Assembly: GCF_003815875.1 (NCBI RefSeq)
Contig: NZ_CP033924.1
Coordinates: 2,542,001-2,606,000, forward strand
Reading direction: 5' to 3'
Length of the DNA stretch: 64,000 nucleotides
Origin: Chryseobacterium lactis
Lineage (GTDB): Bacteria > Bacteroidota > Bacteroidia > Flavobacteriales > Weeksellaceae
The translations under genes were made by a program, and so were the position numbers. Below the pieces are notes generated by a model. The model was not told where the DNA came from and made no database searches. It was given only the letters and a program-made list of their open reading frames with translations. How positions within the stretch are numbered: position 1 is the stretch's first letter; every line of letters begins with the position of its first letter. Positions 1,176 through 28,781 of this stretch are shown here, one piece after another.

Positions 1176-1190
1176 GCGACCTCCATTTTC

Positions 1191-1992: not shown

Positions 1993-2125
1993 GATGTGAT
2001 TGTTTGGTGGTTGTTATAAATGCCTTAATTGGTCGCTTGCATTTTTTTGGATTTAAAAATCTATTTTCAAAATTTCTATTTCATCAAATTTAGAATGCCT
2101 TTTGGCTGAAATGCAAGAACTTGTT

Positions 2126-2167: not shown

Positions 2168-2168
2168 G

Positions 2169-2417
2169 CTAATGTTTCCATTGATCTTTGTCTTTTGGTG
2201 GTGGATCTTTGATCTCATTTCCGTCCACGTCAAAACTTAAATTTGACGCCGTCTGCAAAGTGTCATTCTCTGTTTTTAAATAGAGTTTTTGCTGATTTTC
2301 TTTTTCCGCCAGACTTTTACTTTCTGGTACTATATCCATTTCATCCTGTCTGCAAGACTGTAATGTGCAAAGGGTGAAGAGAATTATCGATATTGAGATA
2401 ACCGTTGTTTTTTTCAT
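2169..2417 (-). CDS. Small putative lipoprotein
   Basis: An 82-residue protein starting at the ATG at 2417; an upstream in-frame start exists but would put 18 polar residues before the signal. The N-terminus MKKTTVISISIILFTLCTLQSC is a lipoprotein signal with a lipobox (LQSC) and cysteine at residue 22. The mature part is about 60 charged, low-complexity residues ending in a DPPPKDKD stretch and has no recognisable domain. It is probably an outer- or inner-membrane-anchored peptide. It is flanked on both sides by the five-copy motif, so it may be co-regulated with the neighbouring redox genes. Function unknown. Confidence 0.6.
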   Translation of the reverse strand: MKKTTVISISIILFTLCTLQSCRQDEMDIVPESKSLAEKENQQKLYLKTENDTLQTASNLSFDVDGNEIKDPPPKDKDQWKH

Positions 2418-2506
2418 TGTAAAATTTTTTAGATTATCTCGGCCGAGACGTGGTTGAATTCTGTGGTCCAAATTATCAGTCTTTGGGATAGGTTAAAACA
2501 ACTTGT

Positions 2507-2529
2507 GGTCTCAGTTATCAAATGCACAC
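2507..2529 (+). repeat. Copy 3 of the five-copy motif
   Basis: Reads GGTCTCAG, four bases, CAAATGCACAC. With seven bases to the left, this 30-base stretch (2500-2529) matches 2119-2148 at 25 of 30 positions, so the repeat with copy 1 is longer than the core motif. It lies 90 bases upstream of the lipoprotein start (on the other strand) and 270 bases upstream of the TPR/AraC regulator gene. Confidence 0.5.
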
Positions 2530-2621
2530 CAATACATTGCACCCTGCGGTGGATGTAAATAATTGAGAAGAAGTCACCTAATATTTTGCGAAAAAATGTT
2601 GAATTGGGGGCATTTTTAAAG

Positions 2622-2664
2622 TGTATTAGAAACCATTCACATGTATTAGAAAGCAAATTCACAC
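2622..2664 (+). repeat. Tandem pair of motif, copies 4 and 5
   Basis: Copy 4 (2622-2641) is TGTATTAGAAACCATTCACA and copy 5 (2642-2664) is TGTATTAGAAAGC then AAATTCACAC; they abut directly. Copy 4 differs from copy 2 mainly by CC for A before ATTCACA. Copy 5 links the two sub-types, because its right half (CAAATTCACAC) matches copies 1 and 3 and its left half matches copies 2 and 4. The pair lies 136 bases upstream of the TPR/AraC regulator start. Confidence 0.5.
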
Positions 2665-2686
2665 CTTTAATTTTAAAGGTGTTTTT
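2661..2686 (+). terminator. Terminator-like hairpin upstream of the TPR/AraC gene
   Basis: A perfect 10-bp stem ACACCTTTAA / TTAAAGGTGT with a 2-base loop (2661-2682) is followed by TTTT on the plus strand. It overlaps the end of motif copy 5. No plus-strand gene lies directly before it, so it may end a short leader RNA or simply be an AT-rich dyad. Confidence 0.35.
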
Positions 2687-2799
2687 AGTAATGTTCTGAT
2701 ATGTAGTGTGTTATTTTGTAAAACGGTTTTTCACCTAACCATGAATTTGGGTGGTGTGGTATATGAGAAATTTTCTTAATTTTATAGTAATACTTAGCC

Positions 2800-4530
2800 A
2801 TGAACCGCCCACAAATTCATTTTTTATCAATCATATTACTTTTTCTGTGCGAATTGCTGTTTGCCCAGCAACAAAAACTGAGCGATTTTTATCTCATCCA
2901 GCGTCAATATGAGAGCCTTCCTGAAAATGATGCAGCTGCACTTCCGCTGGTTGGAAAGCTTATTCGCAAGGCAAAACTTGAAAATAATCATACACAGCTA
3001 TTTCTTGGTTATAAGGATGCCCGCTATTACTCGGCTGATCCGCAGGTTAAACTGAAATATGCGGACAGTGCGATTTATGTAGCAAAGGCAATTAAGAATG
3101 ATAGTTTGTTGAGCAGTGCGTACTTGAGTAAAGGAGTGGTTTATTACTTTTATCTCAAAAAATATAAGCTCGCCCTAAATGAATATTTGAAAGCATTTGA
3201 GAGGAATAAAAGCAATAAAGATCCATATTACAGAAACAAACTGAATTACCACATAGGAGTTGTTAAAAGCTATATAGGTTATTATAAGGAGGCTCTTAAT
3301 AATTTTGAGGAGGGCAGAGTTTTTTTTGAGGGTGAGATCAAGAAGTATCAGCATCCAAATTTGATGTATGGGAATCAAAGAGGGTATTTGAATACGATCC
3401 ATCAAATGATCGTCTGTTACCGTAAACTGGATGATAATAAAATGGCTGATTCGCTGATAGCGGTAGGACTTGCAGGATCATCGAAAAATACGGATTACAA
3501 GCAGGAACACAGTTATTTCCTCAAAGAAGAGGGTATTCGCGAATTCCGTAGCAAGCATTATGGCAATGCGATCAAAATGTTGAACAATTCTTTATCAGAG
3601 CTGATCCAGGTCAATGATTTCGCTTGGTTGACCGTATCATACTCTTACCTTGGCAGAGCCAAGTGGGAGCAAGGAAATACCGCAGAAGCGATCAAGGATT
3701 TTGAAAAGATAGATTCAATTTTCGTAAAGCATAATTTTGTTCTGCCGGAAGTACGTCATATATATGTCGATCTGATAAATTATTATGCAGATAATAAAGA
3801 CAGTGCGAAATCATTATACTATACCCGACAGCTTCTTAAAGTCGATAAAATTCTTGAAGAGGATTTCGTTTATCTGTCTTCAAAAATCCATCATGAGTAT
3901 GATGCTGATAAACTTTTACAGGAGAAGGACAAATTACAGCGGATATCCTGGATTAGAGGAACTGTTTACGTGATCCTATTATTTATTTTTTCCTTTGGAG
4001 CGTTTTATCTGCTGTTAAGGCTGAGGTCCAGAAAGACGGTTATTGGTCGGAATAGCATTTTAGGGATTAACCTAGCAGGTGGCACCTTACAAATGGAAGG
4101 GGAAGGAGCGTTCAGGATGCGAACGTACAGGAAAACTGATATAGGTAATGGTATTGTTGAGGACGTTCTCCAAAAGCTTAGCGAATTTGAAGCAAATCAT
4201 GAATATCTTAATGAACATATTAAGCTTAAATCATTGGCCAAAAGTTTTGGAGTAAACCACAATTATCTATCCGAAATTATTCAGGCACATAGGGGAGCAA
4301 ATTTTCATCTATATCTCTGTGAGTTGCGGATTTCCTACATCACTAAGAAACTTGACACCGATAAAGAATACCATAAGTATTCCAGTGATACGCTGGCAAA
4401 AATGTGTGGAATTTCATCACGGACTAATTTTTCAAAAGTATTCCTGCAGATAAATGGTATTAATTTCACACAATATTTAACCAAAGTCAAATCTGAAATG
4501 GGTACTACTTCTATATCCTTAAATAAATAA
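2800..4530 (+). CDS. Membrane-anchored TPR protein with C-terminal AraC-type DNA-binding domain
   Basis: A 576-residue regulator of a type common in Bacteroidota. Residues 1-23 form a signal peptide ending in LLFAQ. Residues about 60-370 are tetratricopeptide-like helical repeats (for example the ALNEYLKAFERNK and AIKMLNNSLSEL helices). One transmembrane segment (about 387-406, VYVILLFIFSFGAFYLLL) follows, and the cytoplasmic C-terminus (about 465-570) is an AraC-type helix-turn-helix (LKSLAKSFGVNHNYLSEII, then LAKMCGISSRTNFSKVF). The layout implies periplasmic sensing passed across the membrane to a DNA-binding domain. The five-copy motif lies just upstream, so those sites may be its targets (inference). 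Start chosen at the ATG that opens the signal peptide. Confidence 0.85.
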   Translation: MNRPQIHFLSIILLFLCELLFAQQQKLSDFYLIQRQYESLPENDAAALPLVGKLIRKAKLENNHTQLFLGYKDARYYSADPQVKLKYADSAIYVAKAIKNDSLLSSAYLSKGVVYYFYLKKYKLALNEYLKAFERNKSNKDPYYRNKLNYHIGVVKSYIGYYKEALNNFEEGRVFFEGEIKKYQHPNLMYGNQRGYLNTIHQMIVCYRKLDDNKMADSLIAVGLAGSSKNTDYKQEHSYFLKEEGIREFRSKHYGNAIKMLNNSLSELIQVNDFAWLTVSYSYLGRAKWEQGNTAEAIKDFEKIDSIFVKHNFVLPEVRHIYVDLINYYADNKDSAKSLYYTRQLLKVDKILEEDFVYLSSKIHHEYDADKLLQEKDKLQRISWIRGTVYVILLFIFSFGAFYLLLRLRSRKTVIGRNSILGINLAGGTLQMEGEGAFRMRTYRKTDIGNGIVEDVLQKLSEFEANHEYLNEHIKLKSLAKSFGVNHNYLSEIIQAHRGANFHLYLCELRISYITKKLDTDKEYHKYSSDTLAKMCGISSRTNFSKVFLQINGINFTQYLTKVKSEMGTTSISLNK

Positions 4531-10270: not shown

Positions 10271-10320
10271 GCCAAAAGCCGAAGGCTTTTGGCCGCCGGC
10301 AGTTTTTTCAACTGCCGACG
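10271..10320 (-). terminator. Double GC-rich hairpin at the end of the PRTRC operon
   Basis: Two adjacent hairpins: a 10-bp stem GCCAAAAGCC-GAA-GGCTTTTGGC (10271-10293) and a second with core CGGCAGTT / AACTGCCG (10297-10317). On the minus strand the second includes the last codons and stop of the ThiF gene, so it lies exactly at the operon end. They separate convergent transcripts. There is no long T-tract, so termination efficiency is uncertain. Confidence 0.5.
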
Positions 10321-11120
10321 GTAATGGGTTGTGATTTAAAATTTTGCAGATTGAGGAAAAATCCACGGTTTTCTGTCATACCGTCCTTTAGCAAGTTCCA
10401 TAAAAGAGATGCTCCTAAATGCGCAATAGTGCTATTGATGAAAAGATCCTGTTTTGCAAGTGATTCCGCCAGTGAACAGCTTGGGGTATCGTCTTGCTCT
10501 TCCGAGGTTTGCATAGCTGTACCATACTCCTCAATAATAGACGGTAGCTTTGCGAAAGTTTTGAACTTTTTCGAGGTCGGCTGATCTATGTTTCCAATTG
10601 TTGAAAGTATGCCCTGTCCTGAAAATTTGGTATTGCCGAGGTCTAGCCAATACTTTGCGTTGTCCCTGTGGTAACTATAATCTTTGCTTAACTTCTGCAA
10701 TATTTTATTTATTTCAATTCTTGATGCAACCGTATCTGTACAGGATATGTAAATTGATGCGCCTGTATAGTCGGGTATTTTTCCATCGGCATTACGCTCG
10801 AATTTTCTTGTTACCGCTTTCCAATTTGTACCAGCCCATCTGTTAAGCCTATTGATGATAGCTTGCGATTTATAAAGATTTCGTTCCGATTCAGCGAACC
10901 TTTGCCGTCCGATATTGGAAGCTGTAATAATATCATCATCCCACAGGTGTACGTCCAGTCCTGGGTGGTCAAGTTCAAGTAAACTGTGATTGATTTCCAT
11001 AAGTGCGGTCATAAATTTTGAACCCGTACCACCTGCACCGATTACATTTACACGGATGGGATTTGTTGGACTTAATAGATAATTGTCCAAGAAGTGTATA
11101 TTTTTCTTTGGCGTTCTCAT
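10308..11120 (-). CDS. PRTRC system ThiF family (E1-like) protein
   Basis: A 270-residue E1/ThiF/MoeB-like protein. The N-terminus has the nucleotide-binding motif VIGAGGTGSKF (G28xG30GxG33), followed by LDVHLWDDDIITASNIGRQRF, which matches the D..D...SN..RQ signature of adenylating enzymes. A CTDTVASR segment (near residue 125) follows. ThiF proteins activate a C-terminal carboxylate with ATP; in the PRTRC cassette the substrate is unknown. Its start overlaps the stop of the PRTRC-B gene by four bases (ATGA), showing translational coupling. It is the last gene of the minus-strand operon. Confidence 0.9.
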   Translation of the reverse strand: MRTPKKNIHFLDNYLLSPTNPIRVNVIGAGGTGSKFMTALMEINHSLLELDHPGLDVHLWDDDIITASNIGRQRFAESERNLYKSQAIINRLNRWAGTNWKAVTRKFERNADGKIPDYTGASIYISCTDTVASRIEINKILQKLSKDYSYHRDNAKYWLDLGNTKFSGQGILSTIGNIDQPTSKKFKTFAKLPSIIEEYGTAMQTSEEQDDTPSCSLAESLAKQDLFINSTIAHLGASLLWNLLKDGMTENRGFFLNLQNFKSQPITVGS

Positions 11121-11824
11121 AATAAAATGTCATTAAGTTTTTTTGATGTTTTTACAAGCATTGCAGTAGGGAAAAATTTACCGTTATCGATCAGGTTTTC
11201 CCACATCATTACGCAGTTTCCCTTAACAGGATTATGGTCAGACATAAGGTGAGAAAAGTAGCTATTGAAAAAGTAGTTCTCCCATAATTTCATCAGTTCG
11301 TCAACAGAACCAGTTTCTACAGTGGAAATATCTACAGTCCCCATGCAAACGGAGCCATCCACATAGACGTTAAAATATGGTGCGTTGTAAAGCGGTGTAT
11401 TGATTGTAGGTTTCCTCGATGTTGAAAGTGCAAAAACTTTCAGCGTTTCCCTGTCTGCAATCCACACCATTGGAGGGGTATGCGCTTTTCCCGACTTTAT
11501 TCCAAGATTTTTATTAAAGAACAGTTCCCGAAACTGTGCTTTTGTGTACCAGACTATTTTTGAAGATTTGGCATCAAAGGACAGTAAGTTGTTATTCACT
11601 ATACCATCTGATTTGAGCAAATTTAGATTTTCTTCATCCACCTGTAAAGCTTTCGCAAGTCTTTTCCCTTCGTTCACAGATAGGGGATGCGGATTGATGG
11701 GGACACCATTTTCCATGTCGAAATATTCGACATAAGTATTATTAAAACCTGTCTTACACTGATAAAACACCAATGCGCATGTAGGTTCGAAATAATTTGC
11801 GAAGCTGTTGGTTATATCTTCCAT
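11117..11824 (-). CDS. PRTRC system protein B
   Basis: A 235-residue protein matching PRTRC protein B by position and by the central block PPMVWIADRETLKVFALSTSRKPTINTPLYNAPYFNVYVDGSVCMG, where aromatic and Pro residues are conserved in the family as I know it. Function is unknown. It lies directly upstream of ThiF (4-base overlap). The 20 bases before its start codon are identical to those before the DUF932 start at 16991. Confidence 0.8.
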   Translation of the reverse strand: MEDITNSFANYFEPTCALVFYQCKTGFNNTYVEYFDMENGVPINPHPLSVNEGKRLAKALQVDEENLNLLKSDGIVNNNLLSFDAKSSKIVWYTKAQFRELFFNKNLGIKSGKAHTPPMVWIADRETLKVFALSTSRKPTINTPLYNAPYFNVYVDGSVCMGTVDISTVETGSVDELMKLWENYFFNSYFSHLMSDHNPVKGNCVMMWENLIDNGKFFPTAMLVKTSKKLNDILL

Positions 11825-15917: not shown

Positions 15918-16991
15918 TTAATTCAGTTGGAAAATGTCTGTTCCGATTTTCTCGAAAGATGTGCATAGGTCAAATGCTTTCTGTGATTTCAGTTGCGCAG
16001 TACCTCCGAGAACGATGCTCTGTAACTTCGATTCATTGTCTTTGTAGTTCCGGACATTTTGAAAGTAGCCAGTTACAGCATTGTAAGCCCCGAACAGTGT
16101 GCCTTTAGTGGTTTCCAGTTGTTGTGTATCGTTCATCATGGCGTATGCAAAGGCATCATCAACGGTATTTTTGAACATGGTCGAAAGTTCGTCCTCAGCC
16201 CCTTTTTTAAGTAGGTTATAAGCTTCCGTATTTGGGCATAAGGCAAGCTGTATCAGTTTTTTAACTTCGCTATCCTTGATTTTTATGGTTGCCCAATGGT
16301 TAAAAATGCCGTCCATCTGCGTGGTCATGGTGTTTGCCAGTCCCATTACTTTGTGGGCATCACTCAGACGTTGTTTTGCTCCTGCGGTATGTTTTATGCG
16401 TACCACGTTGCTCATATTGCGGAGGGATGCGTTCAGGGTGTTTTGGCATACGATTCGGATAGGTGTGAAGGCTGCTGTAATGCTTCCGCTTCCGTCATGG
16501 CTTGTGGTCAGGAAGATGTATTTTTCAATCACATCATCCGATTTGCCTATACGGATATAATTTGGGAGTTTGGCGGTGATAAATATGCGTTCGCCCTGCC
16601 CGAGCGCCCCTGCAGTCTCGTACAGAATACCGCTTCCACCGCCTACGATAGAATCAAAAAATGTAAAGGCATCTTTATTCTGTACAATGTGGTAATCTCT
16701 ACCCACAACACCAAGTACGGTATTGTTATCTGTGCGGATATTGGCAAAATAGTTAGGTACTTCGATTTCAGTGTCCTGAATTACGATACCGTCCGAAATC
16801 TGCACGATACCTGATCCTTTGGTGAACAAAGGGCTTTTTTCTACTTCGTAGTCCAATCCTGCGTGTCTGATTGCTTCGGCGCTTGTCGGGTATTCCTGAA
16901 CGATCTGTCCCAGACCGTGCCAAGCCTTTTCTTTTACGCTGAAAAATGAATATCTGCCTGTTCTATTGTTGAAATTTAGATTGTGTCCCAT
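15918..16991 (-). CDS. DUF932 domain protein
   Basis: A 357-residue protein of the DUF932 (phage/plasmid-like protein) family: N-terminal NNRTGRYSFFSVKEKAWHGLGQIV, the AL.YEVEKSP block, VLGVVGRDYHIVQNKDAFTFFDSIVG, and SHDGSGSITAAFTPIRIVCQNTLNASL, which are standard landmarks. Members are spread on ICEs, plasmids and phages; function is not established, and a link to DNA metabolism is suggested only by its neighbours, here SSB. The gene follows SSB by about 50 bases on the same strand. The 20-base leader before its ATG is identical to that of PRTRC-B. Confidence 0.85.
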   Translation of the reverse strand: MGHNLNFNNRTGRYSFFSVKEKAWHGLGQIVQEYPTSAEAIRHAGLDYEVEKSPLFTKGSGIVQISDGIVIQDTEIEVPNYFANIRTDNNTVLGVVGRDYHIVQNKDAFTFFDSIVGGGSGILYETAGALGQGERIFITAKLPNYIRIGKSDDVIEKYIFLTTSHDGSGSITAAFTPIRIVCQNTLNASLRNMSNVVRIKHTAGAKQRLSDAHKVMGLANTMTTQMDGIFNHWATIKIKDSEVKKLIQLALCPNTEAYNLLKKGAEDELSTMFKNTVDDAFAYAMMNDTQQLETTKGTLFGAYNAVTGYFQNVRNYKDNESKLQSIVLGGTAQLKSQKAFDLCTSFEKIGTDIFQLN

Positions 16992-17042
16992 GATTTCTAT
17001 TTTTTAAAAGGGTTAAATGTTTTGGATTTTTTACTGTCCTGC

Positions 17043-17438
17043 CTAGAATGGGAGGTCGTCTTTTTCGTCCTCTTTTGCAGTGTTGGCAGGTTCCTGTTTT
17101 TTACTAGCCTGCACGGAATCTTTTTCCGATGCTGTTCCCCAAGCGGGTTTGATATTGGAGGTTGTGAAGTTCAGCCCTGCTTTTGGGTTGCCGTCCTTTC
17201 CATTCCACGCCCTTGCGCTGATCTGTCCCGTCAGTTCGACATATAGCCCCTGTTTGAGCCATGAGACTGGCTTTACACTTCGCCAGTAGGCACATTCAAT
17301 AAATGCGGTGTTGTCCACCCATTCCCCCTGTTTGTTTTTGTAGCCGTCATTTACAGCTACACTGAAGTTTACCACTTCCTTACCTGATGTTGTTTTGCTG
17401 ACCGTTGCATCTTGTGTCAGCCTTCCTGAAATGTTCAT
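17043..17438 (-). CDS. ssb: Single-stranded DNA-binding protein of the element
   Basis: A 131-residue SSB, taken from the ATG at 17438 (MNISGRLTQDATVSKTTSGKEVVNFSVAVND); a longer frame from 17513 adds 25 residues with no match to SSBs. Residues 1-105 are the OB fold (WVDNTAFIECAYWRS, LYVELTGQISARAW). The tail is short and ends in the acidic tip DDLPF used to recruit partner proteins. Such shorter SSBs on ICEs are distinct from the host copy and protect DNA during transfer and replication. First gene of the minus-strand operon. Confidence 0.85.
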   Translation of the reverse strand: MNISGRLTQDATVSKTTSGKEVVNFSVAVNDGYKNKQGEWVDNTAFIECAYWRSVKPVSWLKQGLYVELTGQISARAWNGKDGNPKAGLNFTTSNIKPAWGTASEKDSVQASKKQEPANTAKEDEKDDLPF

Positions 17439-18206
17439 AACTTTTGTTTTTAAGTTGTTGTACAATCTTGTTACGTTTGCTCCCTTTCCAGTCCTGCTGA
17501 GGCTCGGCCCCAAATCATTTTTTCAAAAGAAAAAACAGGAAAAAAAAGAAAGTCAATCCGTACATAGGGGAATTGCGGTAAGGCAAAAGGAAACGGAATA
17601 AAGGATGGGTGAGTGCGACGGCATGTGTTTATGCCGTAGTCTTTTGCGGGCTGAGTGTTGGCTGCCCGATGTACTTTTGAATGTCTTTTTCGACTGTTCT
17701 TTTGATAAAACTGATTCCCCCAATCTTATCTCTTTAAAAGATTCATTGGATTATAAGCATTGTTATTTCATAGGGAATTGCGAGATGATTGCGTAGGTAT
17801 GGTGTGAGCAGCTTGCGATTTGCTATGTAAGGGGAGCAGAAAGCTCTTTTACAGAATGGCTAAGCGGCGGAGTAAATGTGCTTTGCTTTTGTCGGGGAAG
17901 GAATAGAGCTGTCATTAAAAATAGGGATAAAAAAGAAGCATGATTTTGCGTGAGTGATAGAAGCGACATCCTTTTGCAGGGGCAAAAGATATAGCGGATA
18001 GCGCGGTCCTCCGGTCATTTAGTGAAAATGAGTGAAGGGCACGCCCAATTTTAGTTGCTATTGATTTATAGTTTATTTTAAATATGTGCTGATAAATTCA
18101 ATATGTTATGCATGATTTTAAGTATACTGAAAAATCCGGACGTTTTTTGTGTGATTTTTTACTTGCTATAATATTTAATATATTAACATGCCAAACTTTA
18201 ATTATT
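17439..18206. other. Long non-coding stretch upstream of SSB and the CHAT gene
   Basis: About 770 bases between divergent genes with no convincing reading frame. It is GC-richer than its surroundings from about 17600 to 18040. Visible structure: a 7-bp hairpin ACGGCAT / ATGCCGT (17618-17637). It must hold promoters for SSB (minus) and CHAT (plus). Size and position would suit an origin of transfer or another element control site, but no specific signal is recognised. Confidence 0.35.
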
Positions 18207-20405
18207 ATGTTTTATAATACTGCCAAGTCAATTGTTTCCCCTACACAGATACAGTACACAGTTTTCAGTGGAGGAGGTGCAAATGAGTACAACGATTTCC
18301 ATAGCGTTGCACTGAAAATTTTAAGGGAATTTCCTAAAGATCTTCTGCAATTAGCAGATCCGGCAGGATTCTATAACTGGTGTTTTCAGACGGGGCGCAG
18401 TCAGGGAATAAATTTATACCTGCTCGAACCGGGATTGTTTACTGCTGAACGGGTAGTGAACAGTACTTTTTTCAATGAATACTCAGGATTTTTTAATATA
18501 GATCTGGTAAAAGTATTTTTAATCGATAGCAATATCCCCAACCATAAGGAGATTGCGCAGCTGGTTAGTGATATGACCTTTGGTTATTATATGATGATAA
18601 ATGATCCTGGAGAAGAAAATGCTGCCTATTATGATGAAAATAATTTCTTTGCGGATGTACATGGTCTAATAAAGCTTATCGAAAGGGATTTAGCGCAGAT
18701 AAACATCGTACTGCAGAAAGACTATGGTTTTCATATCGAGAGTTTTAATTTTCAAACCAACCCAAATGCCGACGAGTTAAACCCATTTCATCCAACAATG
18801 TACAGTCATTCCAATTATTTTCTGTTAAACCAGATATTAGCTAACGACTGGGCAAAAAAACATCAGTGGCCAGAAAAAGAGGATATGCCAATGTTCAATA
18901 AAAAGAGGGCGACCATTCAGCTGGGACAGGCAGCAGTCATTGATGGTCTGGCTCAAGTTGTGCGTATCAAGGAACCGGCGGCACTTATAGAACCTGTTTA
19001 TCCAGCAATGATTATTATTGCACCTTTTCATTTTCCGCGATTCAAAAAGTTTAGAGCAAGACCGTTTGAAACCAAGAGACAGAAAGCAGTATTTAAGGTC
19101 TCGCAGACGGAACAAAAACTCGACTATACATTTGAAATTGAAGAAGACACACAAAAGATTTTGGGTCATAAGCTGATCGGGCAGGCGCTCGGTGTTCTAA
19201 CAAATAGATTGAATATGCTCGATTATGCAGGTTACCTTCACGGGCAGCTAACGTATTCGCCAATTTTTAGGATGCCTATCGTGGGAAAATCTCTAAATAT
19301 GGACCTGTCGCATTTCCAAAATGCATTTACAACAAGAAAACATGCGATTAAAAAAATGGAAACAATCGGGGAATTGATGCGAAAAAAGATGGTTGTGCCC
19401 GAATTGAAGGAATATCTGGAGGAAAGAAATGGTCAGATTGTTTTTATATCCGATCTGCCAATGGAGTGGCTACGTTTGGATCGATACCCTCTGTGCCTGA
19501 CCCATGACATCTGCCGGATACCGGAATTTAATTTTAGTAGTCTTATCAATAACTATGTACATAACCAGCGGCTGACATTTGAAGTTCGTCCAGATATTCT
19601 TAAACAGACACTTATTGTGCACTGTGCGAGCGAAGAAGATCAGGATATGCACCACTACTTTGGCCGAATTGCATCGATGCAAAAGAACCTAGGGTTTAAA
19701 AGCGTTTTCTGCAAAACCGTTGATGAAATTGAGGAAGCGGTGAGTACTTTGAAGCCAGATCTATTGATTTTTGACTGTCACGGTGATTTTGACGAAAAAG
19801 ATCTTTCAAGCTTCCTTGTTATCGACGGAAAGAACAAAGTAAGGTTAACGGGAGAGGACATAGTAACGCGAGGTATAAGCGCTCCATTGGTATTTATTTC
19901 TGCTTGCAGTACAATGCCGAATTATGGTTATGTGAAATTCTTATCAGACGCTTTTATGCAGGCAGGCGCATTTGCTGTGACAGCTACCTTTATGCCGATT
20001 ATGATGCATGACGCTGCTGCACTTCTTTTACGGATCTTAAGTAATCTAAAGCAACAGCAAGATAAAGCGATCTTTTCTAACTGGCTGGCTTTTATATCGC
20101 ATACGCTGAGAAGCACACTTATTTTTGAAACAGTAAGGAAAACCCGCTCAAAATATGATCTAGATAAGCAAATAGATGATGACAGGGTTGCGGACATACT
20201 TTTAAGGCTGATGGTTTTTGAGACGCGCGAATCTGCACTTGACGAGTTGGGAGAGTATCTGCAGGGAATTATTCCAGAAGCTGATGTAGCTTTCGGAAAT
20301 TTAAATCATGAATGGTTGTCCTATACGACTTTAGGCCGGGCAGATCTCATCAAATTTGAACTTTGGATTGATAAACATGTAAAGATTAACAACTCAGATG
20401 AATAA
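18207..20405 (+). CDS. CHAT-domain caspase-like protease with large N-terminal region
   Basis: A 732-residue protein taken from ATG 18207; an upstream in-frame ATG at 18108 would add a hydrophobic leader of unlikely use. Residues about 480-630 form a CHAT (caspase HetF associated with TPRs) domain: LLIFDCHGDFD supplies the histidine (H525) and VFISACSTMPN the nucleophile cysteine (C567), followed by AGAFAVTATFMPI, the usual small-residue helix. The first 470 residues match nothing I recognise and have no TPR pattern. CHAT proteases occur as effectors in anti-phage defence, often triggered by a sensor domain; a like role here is inference. A small gene follows on the same strand. Confidence 0.75.
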   Translation: MFYNTAKSIVSPTQIQYTVFSGGGANEYNDFHSVALKILREFPKDLLQLADPAGFYNWCFQTGRSQGINLYLLEPGLFTAERVVNSTFFNEYSGFFNIDLVKVFLIDSNIPNHKEIAQLVSDMTFGYYMMINDPGEENAAYYDENNFFADVHGLIKLIERDLAQINIVLQKDYGFHIESFNFQTNPNADELNPFHPTMYSHSNYFLLNQILANDWAKKHQWPEKEDMPMFNKKRATIQLGQAAVIDGLAQVVRIKEPAALIEPVYPAMIIIAPFHFPRFKKFRARPFETKRQKAVFKVSQTEQKLDYTFEIEEDTQKILGHKLIGQALGVLTNRLNMLDYAGYLHGQLTYSPIFRMPIVGKSLNMDLSHFQNAFTTRKHAIKKMETIGELMRKKMVVPELKEYLEERNGQIVFISDLPMEWLRLDRYPLCLTHDICRIPEFNFSSLINNYVHNQRLTFEVRPDILKQTLIVHCASEEDQDMHHYFGRIASMQKNLGFKSVFCKTVDEIEEAVSTLKPDLLIFDCHGDFDEKDLSSFLVIDGKNKVRLTGEDIVTRGISAPLVFISACSTMPNYGYVKFLSDAFMQAGAFAVTATFMPIMMHDAAALLLRILSNLKQQQDKAIFSNWLAFISHTLRSTLIFETVRKTRSKYDLDKQIDDDRVADILLRLMVFETRESALDELGEYLQGIIPEADVAFGNLNHEWLSYTTLGRADLIKFELWIDKHVKINNSDE

Positions 20406-21103: not shown

Positions 21104-22219
21104 TCAATCATTAATTATCCCATTTAATGCCTGTAAATTATAATAAACTAGGGCATTTTGTTTTAAGGGATTTGTACTCCAGTCTTCCCATACACCACGA
21201 TAAGGATCATAACCACACTTTAAGGGCTTAGAATTATCAAGTTCACTCTTGTCAAAAGAATTTCTTTCAGTATAAGCACGGCAGTCCGTGCATACATATC
21301 GAAATTCGCAATCCCGACAAATACTGATTTTGTCCTTGTTCATATCCCAATAAGCCCTAAAGTTCTGGGATAATGCAGCATCTTTAAGCTTTGTCGTTTT
21401 TACATGACCAAAATTTGTAGGCATAGCGGGGCAATTCTTGATATTACCATGAATGTCTATTGCAATTTTTTTATGAAGACAGGAATTATAGCTGACTGCT
21501 TCTGTAAACTTGGGTAGATTAATACCGAAGTTTTTAAGATCTATCTTTCCACAATGGGAAAAATTGTTAATTTCTTTGGTTACAAATTGCCTATGAAAAA
21601 GAATATTTTTGGTTTGATCCCAAGGTGCAACGGAATCAAATGGCGATGAGGTAAAAACCATTTTGCAGACCTGTGGACAATGTGGATTGAGCCGCATAAA
21701 GAAAGTGTCATTAATTTCTTCATGCCACATTGAAATTATTTCAATGGATTTGATTCTATTTTGCGGGATCTGAGAGAAAATATCTAAAAAACACTTTTCA
21801 TTGATCTGTTCATAAAAGACAATTGATATATCAAAGCAACCTAAATCTTCCAATTGAGACAAGTAATCTGCCAAATAATATATAGAGCTTAATTTAAGTT
21901 CGATTATCGCATTTGTGATTTCTGAAGGTACCTGAAATTCTGTGGACATCGGCGGAAAGCAAGAAAATAATTCCGCTGAGCAATAAATACCAAATTCACT
22001 TCTTACCATGTAATCAAGGTTAGCATCAATCACAGATTGCTCCTGCTCAGGATACTGTTGTTTTACTTCATGAATTGTTTTCCCCTGGTCGAGTTCCGAT
22101 AACAGATCAGTAAAATCAAGGGGCAGAAATTCGATTTTCCCCCGTTCAATATCATGAAGAACAGCATTTACCCTTCCTTTGGCAATCTTTATGTTCGGAA
22201 ATAACTTAAAATAATTCAT
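21104..22219 (-). CDS. Grasp-with-spasm system SPASM-domain peptide maturase
   Basis: A 371-residue protein matching the SPASM partner of grasp-with-spasm RiPP systems by length, C-terminal cysteines and neighbours. The C-terminus has SCLHKKIAIDIHGNIKNCPA (C247, C263), ICRDCEFRYVCTDC (C301, C304, C310, C313) and KCGYDP (C335), the cysteine set for auxiliary iron-sulfur clusters. The N-terminal region has no CxxxCxxC radical SAM motif, so this is not a standard radical SAM enzyme. It probably works with the ATP-grasp ligase on the precursor at 23329. Its ATG overlaps the stop of a 59-aa gene by four bases. Confidence 0.85.
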   Translation of the reverse strand: MNYFKLFPNIKIAKGRVNAVLHDIERGKIEFLPLDFTDLLSELDQGKTIHEVKQQYPEQEQSVIDANLDYMVRSEFGIYCSAELFSCFPPMSTEFQVPSEITNAIIELKLSSIYYLADYLSQLEDLGCFDISIVFYEQINEKCFLDIFSQIPQNRIKSIEIISMWHEEINDTFFMRLNPHCPQVCKMVFTSSPFDSVAPWDQTKNILFHRQFVTKEINNFSHCGKIDLKNFGINLPKFTEAVSYNSCLHKKIAIDIHGNIKNCPAMPTNFGHVKTTKLKDAALSQNFRAYWDMNKDKISICRDCEFRYVCTDCRAYTERNSFDKSELDNSKPLKCGYDPYRGVWEDWSTNPLKQNALVYYNLQALNGIIND

Positions 22220-22395
22220 ATCAGGCTATGGATATTTTTATAGAAGGGGTCAATAATGTAATTACCATTATAGTACCTGCTGTATAAAATTTTTCGTTTT
22301 CTCTCTGATATAGGCTGTACTTCAAGAAAGAACATCGGTAATGAAAATCGAGTAGGATTAACCTTAACTTTTTGTTTTAATTCTATTAGTTTCAT
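22216..22395 (-). CDS. 59-residue protein translationally coupled to both RiPP maturases
   Basis: An ATG at 22395 opens a 59-codon frame ending in TGA at 22216. It overlaps the ATP-grasp stop (22392-22395) and the SPASM start (22216-22219), both by exactly four bases as ATGA. Such a fit at both ends is hard to get by chance. The product is basic (MKLIELKQKVKVNPTRFSLP at the N-terminus, then FLEVQPISERKRKILYSRYY and IIDPFYKNIHSLI), has no signal peptide, cysteine or GG motif, and matches nothing I know. It may be a leader-binding or accessory subunit, or a second precursor; the coupling favours a stoichiometric subunit (inference). Confidence 0.75.
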   Translation of the reverse strand: MKLIELKQKVKVNPTRFSLPMFFLEVQPISERKRKILYSRYYNGNYIIDPFYKNIHSLI

Positions 22396-23321
22396 AATTT
22401 TTCTGCCATAATTTTTTCTAATGGATAATTACAGGTCATGGACAGATTTGAAAATTGTCCGGTGGGATTCACCTCCAGGAAATAGTAATTATTGTCTTCT
22501 GCCAATATCCAATCAATCGAACCTGTTCTCAAATTAAGTGCGTCCATTAATTTACATAATGCCTGCTCTAAATAGACAGGGATTTTGAATGGTGTGTTTC
22601 TATTGGGTTTTTGATTGTTATATCGTCTATAATCATCTTTTGTTTGATCGTCCTGCTGTGAAAAAATGGCCATAGACCAGGTATTTCCATCAAGGTAAAA
22701 CGTCCGTATTTCAAAGAATTTATTAATTTTTTCCTGAATCAGGGTCGGTGCAAAAATTTCCGGTAGTTCTCCTAAATCATCAATTTTCAGCACATTTGTG
22801 TAAATGATGGCTGCACAATCATCAAACTGGAACATTGAAGTATCTGTTTTCATCTTAACAATGAATTCCTTGCCATTGTTCGTTTCCAACAAATCCTTAA
22901 TATCGTTTTTTGTCTGAACAATATAGGTTTTAGGAATATGCAGACCAATAATTTTGGCCTTTTCCAACACGATCAGTTTATTGACTGTATTATCATTCAC
23001 GAGGTCCCCGATACTTTTTTTCTCTTTTAACAAGTGTGAAATGTAACCTTTTGTCACTCCATGCTCATTACTGGTGATAGGGTCATTATCGGGATTTGTT
23101 CCGAGAATCTGACCTTTTCTGAACCAACAGGAAGAAACTTGTTCCATATTTATTGCGTGCGAATCATCCTGATTTTCTGGAGTAAACTTTACACCGTCTA
23201 ATCCAAAACTTATGTTTTTAAGATTGTTATTTACACGTACTGAACTTTTCCCGTAATGACACAACCAATCTTGTACAAGATTGGTTGTAAAATCATTTTG
23301 ATTAGATAAAATCAATAACAT
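22392..23321 (-). CDS. Grasp-with-spasm system ATP-grasp peptide maturase
   Basis: A 309-residue ATP-grasp ligase related to microviridin (MvdC/MvdD) and RimK-type enzymes. Family landmarks: SSCWFRKG near residue 65, FIVKMKTDTSMFQFDD in the central lobe, PTLIQEKINKFFEIRTFYLDGN (ATP-binding strand and acidic residues), DDYRRYN, and the metal-binding LEVNPTGQF near the C-terminus. These ligases activate an Asp/Glu side chain or C-terminus by phosphorylation and join it to a Ser/Thr/Lys side chain, forming cyclic peptides. It is 7 bases after the precursor gene on the same strand. Confidence 0.88.
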   Translation of the reverse strand: MLLILSNQNDFTTNLVQDWLCHYGKSSVRVNNNLKNISFGLDGVKFTPENQDDSHAINMEQVSSCWFRKGQILGTNPDNDPITSNEHGVTKGYISHLLKEKKSIGDLVNDNTVNKLIVLEKAKIIGLHIPKTYIVQTKNDIKDLLETNNGKEFIVKMKTDTSMFQFDDCAAIIYTNVLKIDDLGELPEIFAPTLIQEKINKFFEIRTFYLDGNTWSMAIFSQQDDQTKDDYRRYNNQKPNRNTPFKIPVYLEQALCKLMDALNLRTGSIDWILAEDNNYYFLEVNPTGQFSNLSMTCNYPLEKIMAEKL

Positions 23322-23328: not shown

Positions 23329-23553
23329 CTAAGGATAATGATATGTGCTTCCGTCCAATCTTGTTCCATCAATGGAAATCAACTGACCGCTATCGCTGTA
23401 ATACGTAACTTCGCTGTCGCCATCGTTTGCTCCGGTACAGAAATCTTCTCTTCTAGTAGATCCTTCCGGAAGAAGACCGCCGTTGATAGCTTCCATTGTT
23501 TCTTTTTCAATGCAAATACTTTTTGACTCTTGAAACTCTGTGATTGTTTTCAT
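23329..23553 (-). CDS. Grasp-with-spasm precursor peptide
   Basis: A 74-residue peptide. Residues 1-26 form a leader ending in the double-glycine AINGG (G25-G26) with an acidic/Glu-rich helix before it (IEKETMEAI), the layout of Bacteroidota GG-type natural product precursors. The core (27-74) is rich in Asp, Glu, Ser and Thr (for example STRREDFCTG, NDGDSEVT, SIDGTRLDGST), the donors and acceptors used by ATP-grasp ester or amide forming ligases, with one cysteine (C39) in the core. It lies between the GLPGLI gene (9 bases) and the ATP-grasp gene (7 bases). Export after GG cleavage is expected, but no peptidase-transporter is in the cluster. Confidence 0.8.
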   Translation of the reverse strand: MKTITEFQESKSICIEKETMEAINGGLLPEGSTRREDFCTGANDGDSEVTYYSDSGQLISIDGTRLDGSTYHYP

Positions 23554-23562: not shown

Positions 23563-24474
23563 TTATTGTTTAGTCCTACTCTTTAAAGGATTTTCGGTTA
23601 CTCCTATTTTAAAATCATTTATAAGCTTATTGTTATTTCTCTTTAATATCTTCCGTCGGGATTCGCGTTGATTTTTAACATAATCAGCCTGGGAGATCTC
23701 ATTACCTGATGAGTCATAGAATTTAGAAGAAACCACCTCAGCTGAATTACCTGCTGGTACGACATTATTGACAAAATCACCATCGTTACTGATCAGTAGC
23801 TTCTTAAATTCTGCTGTGGTTAAAGTAACTTTTGTATTATTGGATCTTAGTTGCCTACTCTGGAACATAGGTATGAAATCAAGATCAACATTATCAATGT
23901 TAGCAATCCCAGATAACTGAAATGAATGAGAGTTTCGTTCATCCTCAGCAATTAAGATCAGCCCAGGTAGACCATTGAAATAGTAAGGGCCAGAATTAAT
24001 CGGAATGTCTTTTGTAAACCACACTGTCCATTTTCTACCATTTATTTTTGCAGTAGCCTTTTGCACCTGAAAATTCTCAAATACCTTTGTGTCGGGTAGA
24101 ATTGTCCAGTTGATTTTTTGTTCCAGCTTTATTTCATAATAATTCTTTGTTGGCCCTCCCATATAATACAACTTGGGGATTTCATTCTTTTTACTAATGA
24201 TAACCTCATGAAATAAAACATCTCTGTAAGGATAACCTAAGAATTTTGGTGGACTTCCTTTTGCATCCCTTAAATTATACAGGGAATCTATCTGGTTAAT
24301 GCGGTGACTATAAAAGATTGTACCTTCTGCGCTGGCGTCAAGTGCCAGCAGTTCTTTAGCCTTATTTTCCAGATTTGCTGAATCGTTCGAAAAATTATAT
24401 TCGTAATAAAACCGTTTGTTCTGCCCATAGAGAATCCCTATGAATAGTAAAGAAACGATGGTTATTAATTTCAT
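23563..24474 (-). CDS. GLPGLI family protein
   Basis: A 303-residue protein taken from the ATG at 24474 (MKLITIVSLLFIGILYGQ is a signal peptide); the frame stays open further upstream but without a likely start. It carries the family name motif at YYFNGLPGLILIAED (middle of the protein), preceded by the usual WTVWFTKDIPINSGP. GLPGLI proteins are periplasmic or surface proteins of Bacteroidota without known function and are common beside GG-leader RiPP systems, where they may act in export, folding or immunity. First gene of the minus-strand RiPP operon. Confidence 0.85.
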   Translation of the reverse strand: MKLITIVSLLFIGILYGQNKRFYYEYNFSNDSANLENKAKELLALDASAEGTIFYSHRINQIDSLYNLRDAKGSPPKFLGYPYRDVLFHEVIISKKNEIPKLYYMGGPTKNYYEIKLEQKINWTILPDTKVFENFQVQKATAKINGRKWTVWFTKDIPINSGPYYFNGLPGLILIAEDERNSHSFQLSGIANIDNVDLDFIPMFQSRQLRSNNTKVTLTTAEFKKLLISNDGDFVNNVVPAGNSAEVVSSKFYDSSGNEISQADYVKNQRESRRKILKRNNNKLINDFKIGVTENPLKSRTKQ

Positions 24475-24489
24475 TACAGAGTGATTTGG

Positions 24490-24521
24490 TTGGCTAATAT
24501 ATAAAAAAATTAATATATTGG
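24490..24521 (+). promoter_or_regulatory. Candidate promoter of the TlpA-like gene
   Basis: TTG (24490-24492), 21 bases, then TATATTGG (24514-24521), which is one base from the Bacteroidota -7 consensus TAnnTTTG, 20 bases before the ATG at 24542. The opposite-strand operon must start from the same 67-base gap. Confidence 0.35.
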
Positions 24522-24541
24522 TTAAAAAAATATTATTATTT

Positions 24542-25042
24542 ATGAAAAAATTTATCTTTATACTATTATTCACAGTATGCAACCTGCTAATTGCTCAGAA
24601 TAAACAACTTAGAACATTTCCAGATATGGAAGATAAACTGGACACCCATTTTCCGATTGAGAATTTTAAAGATGCAAATGGTAAAAATTTTAGTCCTGAG
24701 TATTTAAAAGGGAAATATACACTGATAAATTTGTGGTCAACAACCTGTGCACCCTGTCTTCGTGAAATACCACTGCTGAATAACTTTAAAAGTTCACTTC
24801 CAGATGTTAATTTCATTGGTATAACATACGATAAGAAAGAAAAAATAGATAATTTTCTTCTAAAGAATAAATTTGATTTTATGCAGATACCAGATGCGGG
24901 AAAGCAGCTCGAATCCTATCTAACGATCCAGCGCTTCCCAATGACTTTGCTTATAAACAAAGAAGGAATAATTACTGACGTTATTGGACATGTAACAGAA
25001 GAAAAACTTCCCGGTATCCGGGAAAAATTAAGTGGCAAATGA
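24542..25042 (+). CDS. TlpA-like thioredoxin, divergent from the RiPP operon
   Basis: A 166-residue secreted thioredoxin-fold protein. The start at 24542 opens a clean signal peptide (MKKFIFILLFTVCNLLIAQ); the frame begins 24 bases earlier at a TTG, less likely. Residues about 45-150 are the TlpA domain with the redox pair C69xxC72 in WSTTCAPCLREIP and a cis-Pro in RFPMTLLIN. Such proteins reduce or form disulfides in the periplasm. Divergence from the RiPP genes and the core cysteine of the precursor make a role in its oxidation or export possible (inference). Confidence 0.8.
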   Translation: MKKFIFILLFTVCNLLIAQNKQLRTFPDMEDKLDTHFPIENFKDANGKNFSPEYLKGKYTLINLWSTTCAPCLREIPLLNNFKSSLPDVNFIGITYDKKEKIDNFLLKNKFDFMQIPDAGKQLESYLTIQRFPMTLLINKEGIITDVIGHVTEEKLPGIREKLSGK

Positions 25043-25847: not shown

Positions 25848-26675
25848 TTATACTTCATAAGTTAGTTCAGGCACGCCTTCATACACAAAAGCTTTAGTTG
25901 GCGTTCCGGTGGTCTTAAATTCCTTCTCGATCGTATAGGCTTCCATTTCGTTTGACTTGATCTGATAAGTTGCAAGTTCAGTGATCTGCTCTTCGGTTAG
26001 ATCTGACATCATCCATTCCCAGGCGAGTTCATCAGGAAGCATTGTAGGCATACGGTTTTTTGAGTTGTGGATCTGCTTCATCAGAGAGTTCGCCTCAGTG
26101 GTTACAAGCGCTACTGTGTCAACTGTTTCACCTGTTTCCTTATCAGTCCAGTTCTGCCAGATCGCAGCAATAAAGAAATATTCCTTATTTACTAATCCGA
26201 TATGATACGGATATTTATCTGCTGTTTTTAGGGGCTGGTTTGTTTTCTTATTTAGACGGTAAATATGTCGCCATTCATAAAATTCGCTGGATAAAATTAA
26301 ACATCGTCTTTCAAGTGCTGCCTTGCGGAACATTTTCTCACGGCCGGTATTTTCATCTTTGAGAAGAAGCTCCTCACCTTTGGCATTTAACGTGGTGTAA
26401 GCTTGATGCCATTTTCCTGCGCCGTCCTTATAGCCAAAACGCATCTTTTTTACATCTTCTCTATTTTTGACATAATTGGGTATAAATCCCCATTCCATCT
26501 GTACGATATCAAAATTGCACTTGTCCTCTGTGGGTCTTAATACTGCAATATTTCCGTAATTAAAACCTTCATGTATTTCCTGATCCAGGAAGTCATAGTT
26601 CATAACGGCCTTTTCAAGATCCATTAATCTTATGAATTCCTCCCGTGATACGCGTTGTCCATTGTAATAACACAT
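25848..26675 (-). CDS. SOS response-associated peptidase (SRAP, YedK/HMCES family)
   Basis: A 275-residue SRAP protein that starts with the catalytic MCYY (Cys2, which in the family forms a thiazolidine crosslink to abasic sites in single-stranded DNA after loss of the first Met). The other landmarks are present: CNFDIVQMEWGFIPNY, CLILSSEFYEWRH with the active-site Glu, and KQIHNSKNRMPTMLP with the histidine. It protects abasic sites at stalled or single-stranded DNA. A small gene (26680-26922) lies 4 bases upstream on the same strand. SRAP proteins are frequent on mobile elements. Confidence 0.9.
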   Translation of the reverse strand: MCYYNGQRVSREEFIRLMDLEKAVMNYDFLDQEIHEGFNYGNIAVLRPTEDKCNFDIVQMEWGFIPNYVKNREDVKKMRFGYKDGAGKWHQAYTTLNAKGEELLLKDENTGREKMFRKAALERRCLILSSEFYEWRHIYRLNKKTNQPLKTADKYPYHIGLVNKEYFFIAAIWQNWTDKETGETVDTVALVTTEANSLMKQIHNSKNRMPTMLPDELAWEWMMSDLTEEQITELATYQIKSNEMEAYTIEKEFKTTGTPTKAFVYEGVPELTYEV

Positions 26676-26679
26676 AGCT

Positions 26680-26922
26680 CTATTCTTTTAAGTGTTTACT
26701 AATTTCGTTGCCGAATACATCAGCTTCTTGCTGCCGGCCTTGTGGAATGCTCATCCACATTTCACCATTCCAAGTTTTTGCACGAGATATATTCAAGGGG
26801 GGGCGACCATCATTAAATAATAGCCGAAAAACTTGCTGATCTTTGACAGTATATTCAATTACAGCAATTTTCAAGCCTTGAATCTCGACTTCAAATTTAT
26901 TATTTTCAAATAGACTTCCCAT
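26680..26922 (-). CDS. Small protein of unknown function upstream of SRAP
   Basis: An 80-residue soluble protein with beta-strand character in its first 45 residues (NKFEVEIQGLKIAVIEYTV, QVFRLLFNDG) and NISRAKTWNGEMWMSIPQGRQQEADVFGNEI after. I recall proteins of this kind beside SRAP genes in Flavobacteriia, with no function. The 4-base gap to the SRAP start indicates translational coupling. Confidence 0.6.
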   Translation of the reverse strand: MGSLFENNKFEVEIQGLKIAVIEYTVKDQQVFRLLFNDGRPPLNISRAKTWNGEMWMSIPQGRQQEADVFGNEISKHLKE

Positions 26923-27392
26923 TTGAGTATTTATTTGTGCTATATTAAATTTAGCGATTCTAATTCACATGTAACAATTATCATTTTTGATGAAAATAGG
27001 TATTTATGATACTTTTTAGCAAGTAGAGACAATGCCATTGATAGAGAAAGCAAAACCTTTAATGCGTGAAACGGATATATGTTTAAATAAGGAAGTGCTG
27101 ATATTATTATGAACGTTTTAATATTGATTAATGGGCAACATATAATTTAGAAATAAAATAAAAAGACTAATCTTTCGACTAGTCTTTTAGAGAGAAACAA
27201 CGAATTTATTTAGCTTATGTCCAAACTAAATTAAGTTTTATTTAGAATTATTCCAAATAATTACTAAAAAATAATTGGCTAATTCCTTAGTGTAGGTAAA
27301 CCTACCTATTTTGAAGGGTCAAAATGTAAGCTTTACTGATAGTACTTTTTTCAACGATTTAGAAGGATGTAGTGAAAAAATTTTAATGCAAG
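26923..27392. other. Intergenic region between integrase and SRAP cluster
   Basis: Very AT-rich with no gene. It holds the hairpin at 27161-27188 and a perfect dyad GTAGGT-AA-ACCTAC (27292-27305), about 90 bases beyond the integrase stop. Nothing else recognised. Confidence 0.4.
27161..27188 (-). terminator. Intrinsic terminator, probably of the integrase transcript
   Basis: Perfect 9-bp stem AAAAGACTA / TAGTCTTTT with a 10-base loop. On the minus strand it is followed by a T-rich run (TTTATTTTATTTC). It lies about 205 bases past the integrase stop; the distance leaves some doubt on which RNA it ends. Confidence 0.5.
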
Positions 27393-28781
27393 TTATTTAG
27401 ATAGTAACATCTCTTTAATGAAATCTAGCTTGCTCGTGATTGCAAGAAGTTGTTCCCGTGGCGGAATAACACTATTAATTGTATTTTTTTGCCCTAGAGC
27501 CGCAATTTCATCTTGAAGCTTATGTAATAGTAGTAATGGATCTTCATTTTGATTGCGATCATTGGTTTTATTAAGTTTCTCTTTGAGCTGTAGCATTTCT
27601 AAGCTAATGGATTCCTGCTCTGTAATTGCATACTCTTCGGTCTGTTTGACCGAATAGTGACCCATCATCTCCTTAACGATATGTAAAGGTACTCCATTTT
27701 TAAGCGTAACAGTGCTGCCGAATGTTCTTCTAGCTTTATGGGTATTCAATGTGTCGGGCAAATCACATAATATGGCTATTTCTTTGAGGTATTCATTCAT
27801 TTTTTGATTGGACTTAACTGGTAAAACAGAGCCCCGTTTAATACATAATGGATGATCTTGATAACGTTCCATAATTTCAATCGCTTTTGGCAAAAGTGGA
27901 ATATCTGTTTCTGATTTTGATTTTTGGCGACTTGACATGATCCACAAAGTTCCGTCAATACCCTTTTTTATATCACTAGGTTTTAATTGATAAGCATCAA
28001 TGTAGGCTAATCCAGTATAACACTGAAAAACGAAGATATCCCGGATTAAAGATAATCGCTCGGAAGAAAAGACCTTATTTTCTAGCCTAAAAAGTTCATC
28101 TGTGGATAGGGGTTTCTTTTTAATTTTTGTTTTCTTGCTTTTAAAAAGTTTAAATGGATCTCGGGGAATAATGTCCTTCGCAATGGCTCTTAAAACAATG
28201 GTTTTGAAATTAGCAATGTATTTTAGAGCAGTATTGTTACTACAATTTCGAACAGTTTTTAAATATAATTCATAGTCTCTAATGAATGCAAAATTCAGTT
28301 CCCTGAATTCAAGGTCATCGCGATTGTATTTAAACTTTATAAACTTTGCGGCATGTGATTTTGCAATCTGGTAACGTTCATATGTACCTATCGCGTATTC
28401 CTTGGTTTCTACTAAAGCGAGTATTTCAGAATTGTGATCGCTAAATTCCTCCAGAACTTTTGCTTTCGATACGTTTTTCCCTTTTACAAAATCAATAAGT
28501 TTCTGTGAGGTAATGGTCTGATCATTATTGATTAGCTCAGTCCGATAGTTCGAAATCCGGGTACTTAGGGAGTCCAGAAAATAATTTAAAGATTTGGCAT
28601 CTTCCTTATTTCCGGTAGCTCTTCCGGACTTTTGATTCCAACGAGTTGAATCCCATTTTCGTTTAGTAGAAATTTCTTTTGGAATTCCATCAACTGTAAT
28701 TCTCAAGTAGACTACTCTTAAATTTTCCTTTTTCTCTGGTGTCTTCAAAAAGAAGATTGCACCAAAACTTTTTTCTAGCAT
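27393..28781 (-). CDS. Tyrosine recombinase (IntDOT-like integrase)
   Basis: A 462-residue site-specific integrase. The N-terminal 110 residues are an arm-binding domain; residues about 115-210 form the core-binding (SAM-like) domain (YERYQIAKSHAAKFIKF, FAFIRDYELYLKTVRNCSNNTA). The catalytic domain (about 225-400) has H348xxR351 in THKARRTF, H375 in MGHYSVKQ and the nucleophile Y384 in TEEYA. In box I the usual arginine is replaced: CYTGLAYID has Ala259. The same loss is known for IntDOT of Bacteroides CTnDOT. C-terminal 60 residues are extra helices. Faces away from the tRNA-Ser gene. Confidence 0.92.
   Translation of the reverse strand: MLEKSFGAIFFLKTPEKKENLRVVYLRITVDGIPKEISTKRKWDSTRWNQKSGRATGNKEDAKSLNYFLDSLSTRISNYRTELINNDQTITSQKLIDFVKGKNVSKAKVLEEFSDHNSEILALVETKEYAIGTYERYQIAKSHAAKFIKFKYNRDDLEFRELNFAFIRDYELYLKTVRNCSNNTALKYIANFKTIVLRAIAKDIIPRDPFKLFKSKKTKIKKKPLSTDELFRLENKVFSSERLSLIRDIFVFQCYTGLAYIDAYQLKPSDIKKGIDGTLWIMSSRQKSKSETDIPLLPKAIEIMERYQDHPLCIKRGSVLPVKSNQKMNEYLKEIAILCDLPDTLNTHKARRTFGSTVTLKNGVPLHIVKEMMGHYSVKQTEEYAITEQESISLEMLQLKEKLNKTNDRNQNEDPLLLLHKLQDEIAALGQKNTINSVIPPREQLLAITSKLDFIKEMLLSK

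Follow-up and report, generated by a model that had tools for sequence, protein, structure and literature searches.

A small gene between the ligase and SPASM genes of a Chryseobacterium lactis graspetide cluster is a divergent LPL-family member and may encode a ligase helper

A grasp-with-spasm cluster with a small third gene

The window, by which we mean the whole stretch of 64,000 nucleotides of Chryseobacterium lactis DNA that was analysed (contig NZ_CP033924.1, positions 2,542,001 to 2,606,000), carries a grasp-with-spasm gene cluster with the following features.

21104..22219, reverse strand: SPASM-domain peptide maturase without a radical SAM motif (TIGR04193, 328 bits, cut-off 175)
21215..21553, reverse strand: SPASM cysteines, C223 to C335 (invariant or nearly invariant columns of alignment A3)
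21980..22219, reverse strand: predicted PqqD-like RRE domain at the SPASM N-terminus, residues 1–80 (AF model, Foldseek, hhalign)
22216..22219, reverse strand: ATGA overlap of the small-gene stop and the SPASM start (sequence)
22216..22395, reverse strand: gene for a 59-residue LPL-family accessory protein (open reading frame, relatives, dN/dS, profile membership)
22219..22245, reverse strand: conserved C-terminal tail FYKNIHSLI, residues 51–59 (alignment A2)
22321..22341, reverse strand: LPL-signature region LPMFFLE, residues 19–25 (alignment A2)
22392..22395, reverse strand: ATGA overlap of the ligase stop and the small-gene start (sequence)
22392..23321, reverse strand: ATP-grasp peptide ligase of the grasp-with-spasm type (TIGR04192, 286 bits, cut-off 230)
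23329..23553, reverse strand: putative 74-residue precursor peptide with GG at residues 25–26 (open reading frame)
23563..24582, reverse strand: protein of the GLPGLI family, encoded upstream of the precursor and with an uncertain start (TIGR01200, 133 bits)

The frame at 22216–22395 on the reverse strand runs for 59 codons to a TGA, and 3–8 stops interrupt each of the remaining five frames of the same stretch. A sequence-only reading of this DNA had described it as filling the whole space between the two enzyme genes, and it does: ligase and SPASM genes are spaced by exactly 172 bases, and the small frame covers them and overlaps its neighbour on each side. The product has a net charge of +7, in keeping with the basic protein claimed there. 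Among the flanking products, the ligase has PDB relatives in AMdnB (7m4s), CdnC (7mgv) and 5ig9, and the radical SAM motif CX3CX2C is absent from residues 60–200 in all 158 SPASM relatives. The putative precursor has counterparts at three related loci (L035, L036 and L037), and no family model matched it above that model's own cut-off.

Around the cluster lie genes for ThiF, Prok-E2_D, DUF932, SSB, SRAP and a tyrosine integrase (10308–11824, 15918–17513 and 25848–28781), and the cluster looks like the cargo of an integrative element, one that we take to be PRTRC-like. A CHAT-domain protein of 765 residues is encoded beside the cluster (18108–20405). The same genome holds a second grasp-with-spasm cluster (G000:C1:3203148-3204176, L095), in the gap of which lies a different frame of 46 residues that ends in YYKPILKNF.

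The small frame is conserved as a protein

Two relatives of the window protein came out of a search through 5.8 billion proteins; they are 93% and 54% identical to it and each 59 residues long. In 320 family genomes there were six strong matches to the small gene (E ≤ 2e-15, the window's own counted), all adjoining ligase and SPASM genes; one of the six, in G118, is on a contig that stops within the SPASM gene, and the ligase frame there is incomplete. Weaker matches in 84 more of these genomes (E of about 0.001 and above) look like noise, except for those in G169 and G116, which occupy the same place in other clusters. Neither Pfam nor NCBIfam matched the window protein, and 58 relatives gave only scattered weak matches (best E 0.002), none of them common to more than two.

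Relative to its nearest relative, at L034, the small gene shows 15 synonymous and 5 non-synonymous differences, with dN 0.036, dS 0.66 and dN/dS 0.055; the family-wide median dN/dS is 0.098 (83 pairs of equal length, 70–97% identical). Such conservation of amino-acid sequence excludes a mere spacer. The same small gene, 92% identical at the protein level, is present in Chryseobacterium sp. ISL-6 and again on a 5,265-base contig filed under Streptomyces sp. ISL-12 (L064), which is probably an assembly contamination.

The sequence-only reading staked its claim on finding a conserved frame in the corresponding gap of related clusters. We collected 213 ligase matches, set aside eight with an incomplete 3′ end and collapsed the other 205 into 165 distinct complete ligases, counting as a candidate small gene any frame of 35–95 residues that starts between −40 and +75 bases from the ligase stop. 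The loci were picked through matches to SPASM, ligase or window profiles, an uneven sample in which members far from both enzyme genes would be invisible. A candidate follows 163 of the 165 ligases; of the two exceptions, L190 has an intact frame just past the start limit and L229 a frameshifted one. Where the gap is 350 bases or shorter, a frame spans it in 129 of 145 related loci, whereas gaps resampled from their own dinucleotide steps are spanned at a rate of 3.0%, so that the claim survived. Among the 163 loci with a candidate, 92 have the small-gene start at −4 relative to the ligase stop, and in 75 of the 145 short-gap loci the end of the small gene overlaps the SPASM gene by four bases. 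Both ATGA overlaps occur together in 48 of these 145, and the double overlap is thus common, not universal. The overlap with the ligase suggests that translation of the two genes is coupled, which does not imply any stoichiometry. Judged from its sequence and that of its relatives, the frame is a real, conserved, protein-coding gene.

The window protein belongs to the LPL family

Two iterated profile searches, one seeded with the window's five-member group and the other with ten LPLTFKYI-type sequences, ended with an identical set of 110 out of 162 distinct small proteins, which places the window protein in the LPL family. It is linked to the LPL seeds step by step: in the LPL-seeded run the L038 protein enters first (E 9e-5) and the L035 protein next, with the window protein at E 1.1e-4 in the round preceding its own entry. 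At convergence two of 4,427 control reading frames matched, and both are really small genes of the LPL family (L190 and L098); a transient control match in round 0 of the window-group run came from L040, a locus fetched through a window-profile match. The 52 gap proteins that stayed outside the family profile, whose clusters align to the family with hhalign probabilities of 0.5–81%, are either distant members, unrelated proteins in the same place, or a few spurious picks.

The family consensus reads MKxxxxEKxKLPLTFKYxE ... KYQT ... PxKxLxRLL. A literal LPL occurs in 78 of the 162 gap proteins and LP[LIMVF] in 103; the window signature is LPM. K53 is the sole nearly invariant column of alignment A2, and the tail pattern K-x-h-x-[RK] occurs in 94 of the 110 proteins of the family, in 19 of the 52 gap proteins outside it and in 255 of 4,427 control frames; the window tail has S at the R/K position. 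No fusion of LPL to another protein was seen among frames of more than 110 residues in the fetched loci.

Makarova et al. (2022; PMC8939145) described the LPL family of graspetide loci. In the part of that paper that deals with it, the proteins are said to lie always directly upstream of SPASM and are proposed to be PqqD-like chaperones for the SPASM enzyme, with an interaction with the ATP-grasp enzyme left possible; their motif is likened to the leader motif Phh[x1-2]h, and unrelated small proteins are reported at the same place in other loci. The window gene lies at such a locus, with a TIGR04193-type SPASM gene and an ATP-grasp gene, directly upstream of the former. It was therefore not a new gene, as had been thought, for a family in print since 2022 already accommodates it. 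The named relatives are mostly annotated as hypothetical proteins. A 58-member profile retrieved 241 proteins at E ≤ 0.01, and among the matches listed (the best 120 of the 241) the named ones are hypothetical or uncharacterised, with one 'transcription elongation factor'. From profile homology, we conclude that the window protein is a divergent LPL-family member and not a new kind of gene. The open literature searched, as far as its available text extends, yielded no experimental work on an LPL protein or on TIGR04193 proteins.

Gene order follows the ligase

We then asked which enzyme gene the small gene accompanies. A profile scan of the fetched loci, at any position in them, gave 115 distinct LPL genes, and a gene counted as 'beside' an enzyme gene when its distance to the ligase stop or to the SPASM start fell between −60 and +100 bases. 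The ligase adjoins 114 of the 115. Both enzyme genes are neighbours in 85 cases, the ligase alone in 29 and SPASM alone in none; the remaining copy (L025) is broken, without a start codon, and belongs to the L229 locus. For the 29 ligase-only genes, SPASM is 105–170 bases off in seven and 317–4122 in 19, with no intact SPASM start found in the other three.

The long-gap loci show the same arrangement from the side of the ligase. In 20 of the 165 ligases the gap to SPASM exceeds 350 bases, and the small gene stays between −32 and +29 relative to the ligase stop (intact in 19, frameshifted in one), with another gene or remnant separating it from SPASM in all 20. The intervening gene carries an IDSIYR-type motif in 16, belongs to the GLPGLI family in three and is unclassified in one. 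In four fetched arrays with two ligases and one SPASM gene (L215, L216, L217 and L231) there is one small gene per ligase, the second small gene of two such arrays being recorded under the duplicate loci L186 and L020. A short ligase remnant also precedes SPASM in L221 and L232, and L236 comprises two complete cassettes with a SPASM gene apiece.

The frameshift at L229, just after 3317 in an otherwise complete long-gap cluster, reflects either decay or a sequencing error. The IDSIYR-type genes (L225, L187, L216, L231, L232 and others) encode about 300 residues with, by eye, a lipobox-like start; NCBIfam gave no match in the four that were scanned, and they are perhaps the 'cluster 23' family that appears in PMC8939145.

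In most loci the small gene abuts SPASM as well, so gene order does not exclude SPASM as the partner. Mirror-tree comparison of 97 triplets gave partial correlations of 0.53 with the ligase versus 0.43 with SPASM from distances, and 0.44 versus 0.38 from trees; the bootstrap intervals of the difference span 0, and the two enzymes are not separated by this measure.

A PqqD-like fold is predicted in the SPASM protein

The AF model of the SPASM protein (pLDDT 89, pTM 0.83) resembles, as a whole and loosely, the RRE-rSAM-SPASM enzymes TigE, CteB and SuiB (E 1e-5 to 1e-3, TM 0.30–0.43). In Foldseek its N-terminus superimposes on the RRE 6jx3_B with an rmsd of 1.9 Å over 83 columns (target TM 0.77, E 0.03, prob 1.00) and matches the RRE domains 5v1v and 8t19 with target TM of 0.70 and 0.65 (E 0.05). 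By hhalign, residues 17–75 reach a probability of 51.6% against a profile built from 29 PqqD-like proteins, compared with 0.1–0.3% for six other segments. The SPASM protein is thus predicted, from its model, to carry its own leader-binding RRE domain.

The LPL protein gave no match to the same profile (hhalign probability 0.1%). Its AF model, with pLDDT 77 and a pTM of only 0.39, consists of a pair of short helices and a hairpin, with a loose tail (H3–12, H19–23, E35–39, E44–48). The beta-beta-beta-alpha-alpha-alpha fold of PqqD and RRE domains is not seen in it, and in a fold search against the PDB none of 34 matches reached E ≤ 0.001.

A proposed ligase helper, possibly acting like a leader in trans

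By its sequence, the divergent LPL member is a small basic accessory of grasp-with-spasm clusters. Our leading reading, to which we give slightly less than an even chance, is that it is a detachable helper that binds the ATP-grasp ligase. The ligase rather than the iron-sulphur SPASM protein is more probably the partner, which we infer because the gene order points that way and a second PqqD-like protein would be redundant. LPL would bind the ligase, and the leader of the precursor would probably be held by the N-terminal RRE domain that is predicted in the SPASM fold. In the boldest form of this proposal, the proline/aromatic segment of LPL would replace in trans the PFFARFL helix that microviridin leaders present in cis. 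A ligase switched on by LPL could then act on precursors whose leaders lack a PFFARFL-type motif, and these leaders would be free for recognition by the RRE of the non-radical SPASM protein.

That LPL is such a natural, separately encoded leader module, activating the graspetide ligase in trans, is an analogy that we think unlikely to hold. MdnC-type ligases are switched on in trans by microviridin leader peptide supplied free, according to PMC5934393, and in the structural account given in PMC7823629 it is through Arg17 of MdnA that the PFFARFL helix touches Glu191, Asp192 and Asn195 of MdnC. The motif Phhx(1,2)h is present in one of 106 putative leaders, some of which are probably not precursors, in 47 of 108 LPL proteins and in 1299 of 4427 control frames. 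Within the first 30 residues it is not enriched in LPL (21/108 vs 747/4427). A looser pattern, Ph.[FYLIWV], which was picked after seeing the family, fits 100 of 108 LPL proteins, 1431 of 4427 controls and a single one of the 106 leaders.

The MdnC contact positions are partly altered in the relatives, being acidic at 191 in 20 of 103 and at 192 in 75, with 195 deleted in 74. K stands at P+4 in 59 of 89 relatives; the window's LPMFFLE has no basic residue there. Where the LPL protein has a basic P+4, the ligase is acidic at 191 or 192 in 55 of 56 cases, compared with 14 of the 29 remaining ligases; in nine tree-independent pairs the association was concordant in three, opposite in none and tied in six, which is not significant. 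Counting the motif by the same pattern in all sets moved our estimate for the leader-in-trans form down slightly, from rather unlikely to unlikely, and left that for the ligase as partner unchanged.

Weighing other roles

The published alternative is that LPL is a PqqD-like chaperone that hands the leader of the precursor to the SPASM maturase. Makarova et al. argue it from the position directly upstream of SPASM, and the adjacency of SPASM to 85 of the 115 LPL genes agrees with it. The SPASM protein, however, has its own predicted PqqD-like RRE, LPL lacks both profile and fold resemblance to PqqD, and the LPL gene parts from SPASM and not from the ligase. Together these observations speak against the chaperone role, which we regard as decidedly unlikely. 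A scaffold that binds ligase and SPASM protein together, so that one precursor meets both enzymes (the bridge of the sequence-only reading), would suit a gene set between the two with overlaps on each side, and its conserved ends (the LPL motif and the C-terminal tail) could serve two partners. The occurrence of two small genes per SPASM gene in four arrays argues against it and the mirror-tree result is neutral; a scaffold seems to us rather unlikely.

Other roles would leave the small protein apart from the enzymes or make it their substrate. Immunity, regulation or a purely translational spacer might be entertained inasmuch as the partner of LPL is itself inferred; the median dN/dS excludes the spacer, the profile libraries offered no match to the window protein and no more than scattered weak hits to 58 relatives, and we consider this group of roles very improbable. 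A second precursor would fit a small, basic product of a RiPP cluster. Even so, the window protein has no GG cleavage motif and only two of 108 LPL-family proteins have one, purifying selection is strong along the frame with no variable core, and the LPL section of PMC8939145 likewise describes the absence of precursor features; a substrate role is scarcely credible. A chance open frame is ruled out for practical purposes by the gap-spanning rate, the convergence of the profiles and the dN/dS of the window gene.

We conclude that the small gene is real, ordinary for its system and a divergent member of a published family. LPL is a little-studied family of small helpers beside a peptide-modifying ligase in Chryseobacterium-type bacteria, and grasp-with-spasm clusters are common among the 320 family genomes, 150 of which have a TIGR04193 match (136 above cut-off). 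What is added here is the gene order that follows the ligase, the predicted RRE in the SPASM protein and the lack of a PqqD match for LPL. A SPASM protein with its own predicted RRE and without a radical SAM motif narrows the possible job of each component. If the ligase requires LPL, its reconstitution without LPL would fail. Were the leader-module form true, it would account for one ligase type serving very diverse precursors, and a leader activator with a gene of its own would be out of the ordinary among RiPP enzymes.

Comparison with known systems

Both window enzymes score above the cut-offs of the grasp-with-spasm system (TIGR04192 and TIGR04193), whereas the third, small gene has no NCBIfam model match. 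With the LPL family the window protein shares small size, the place between ATP-grasp and TIGR04193 SPASM genes, a proline motif, the lack of GG and profile homology, and it differs in having LPM instead of LPL. The family itself departs from the description in the pertinent part of PMC8939145 in two respects: LPL is there always immediately upstream of SPASM, whereas 29 of our 115 genes are more than 100 bases from any detected SPASM start, and the partner proposed there is the SPASM enzyme, whereas our analysis favours the ligase.

PqqD and RRE domains resemble LPL in the role assigned to it in that account, a small helper of a SPASM enzyme; LPL has neither sequence nor fold match to them, and it is the SPASM protein that carries the predicted RRE. 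The microviridin leader helix, PFFARFL, is similar in its succession of proline and hydrophobic residues, followed in LPL often by K at P+4 and then by aromatic and aliphatic residues. LPL differs in being a separate gene with a conserved C-terminal tail, in showing no enrichment of the strict leader motif and in facing ligases whose contact residues are partly lost. Microviridin leaders, whose helix acts on MdnB and MdnC, can work in trans, and it is by analogy with them that we propose that LPL may do the same.
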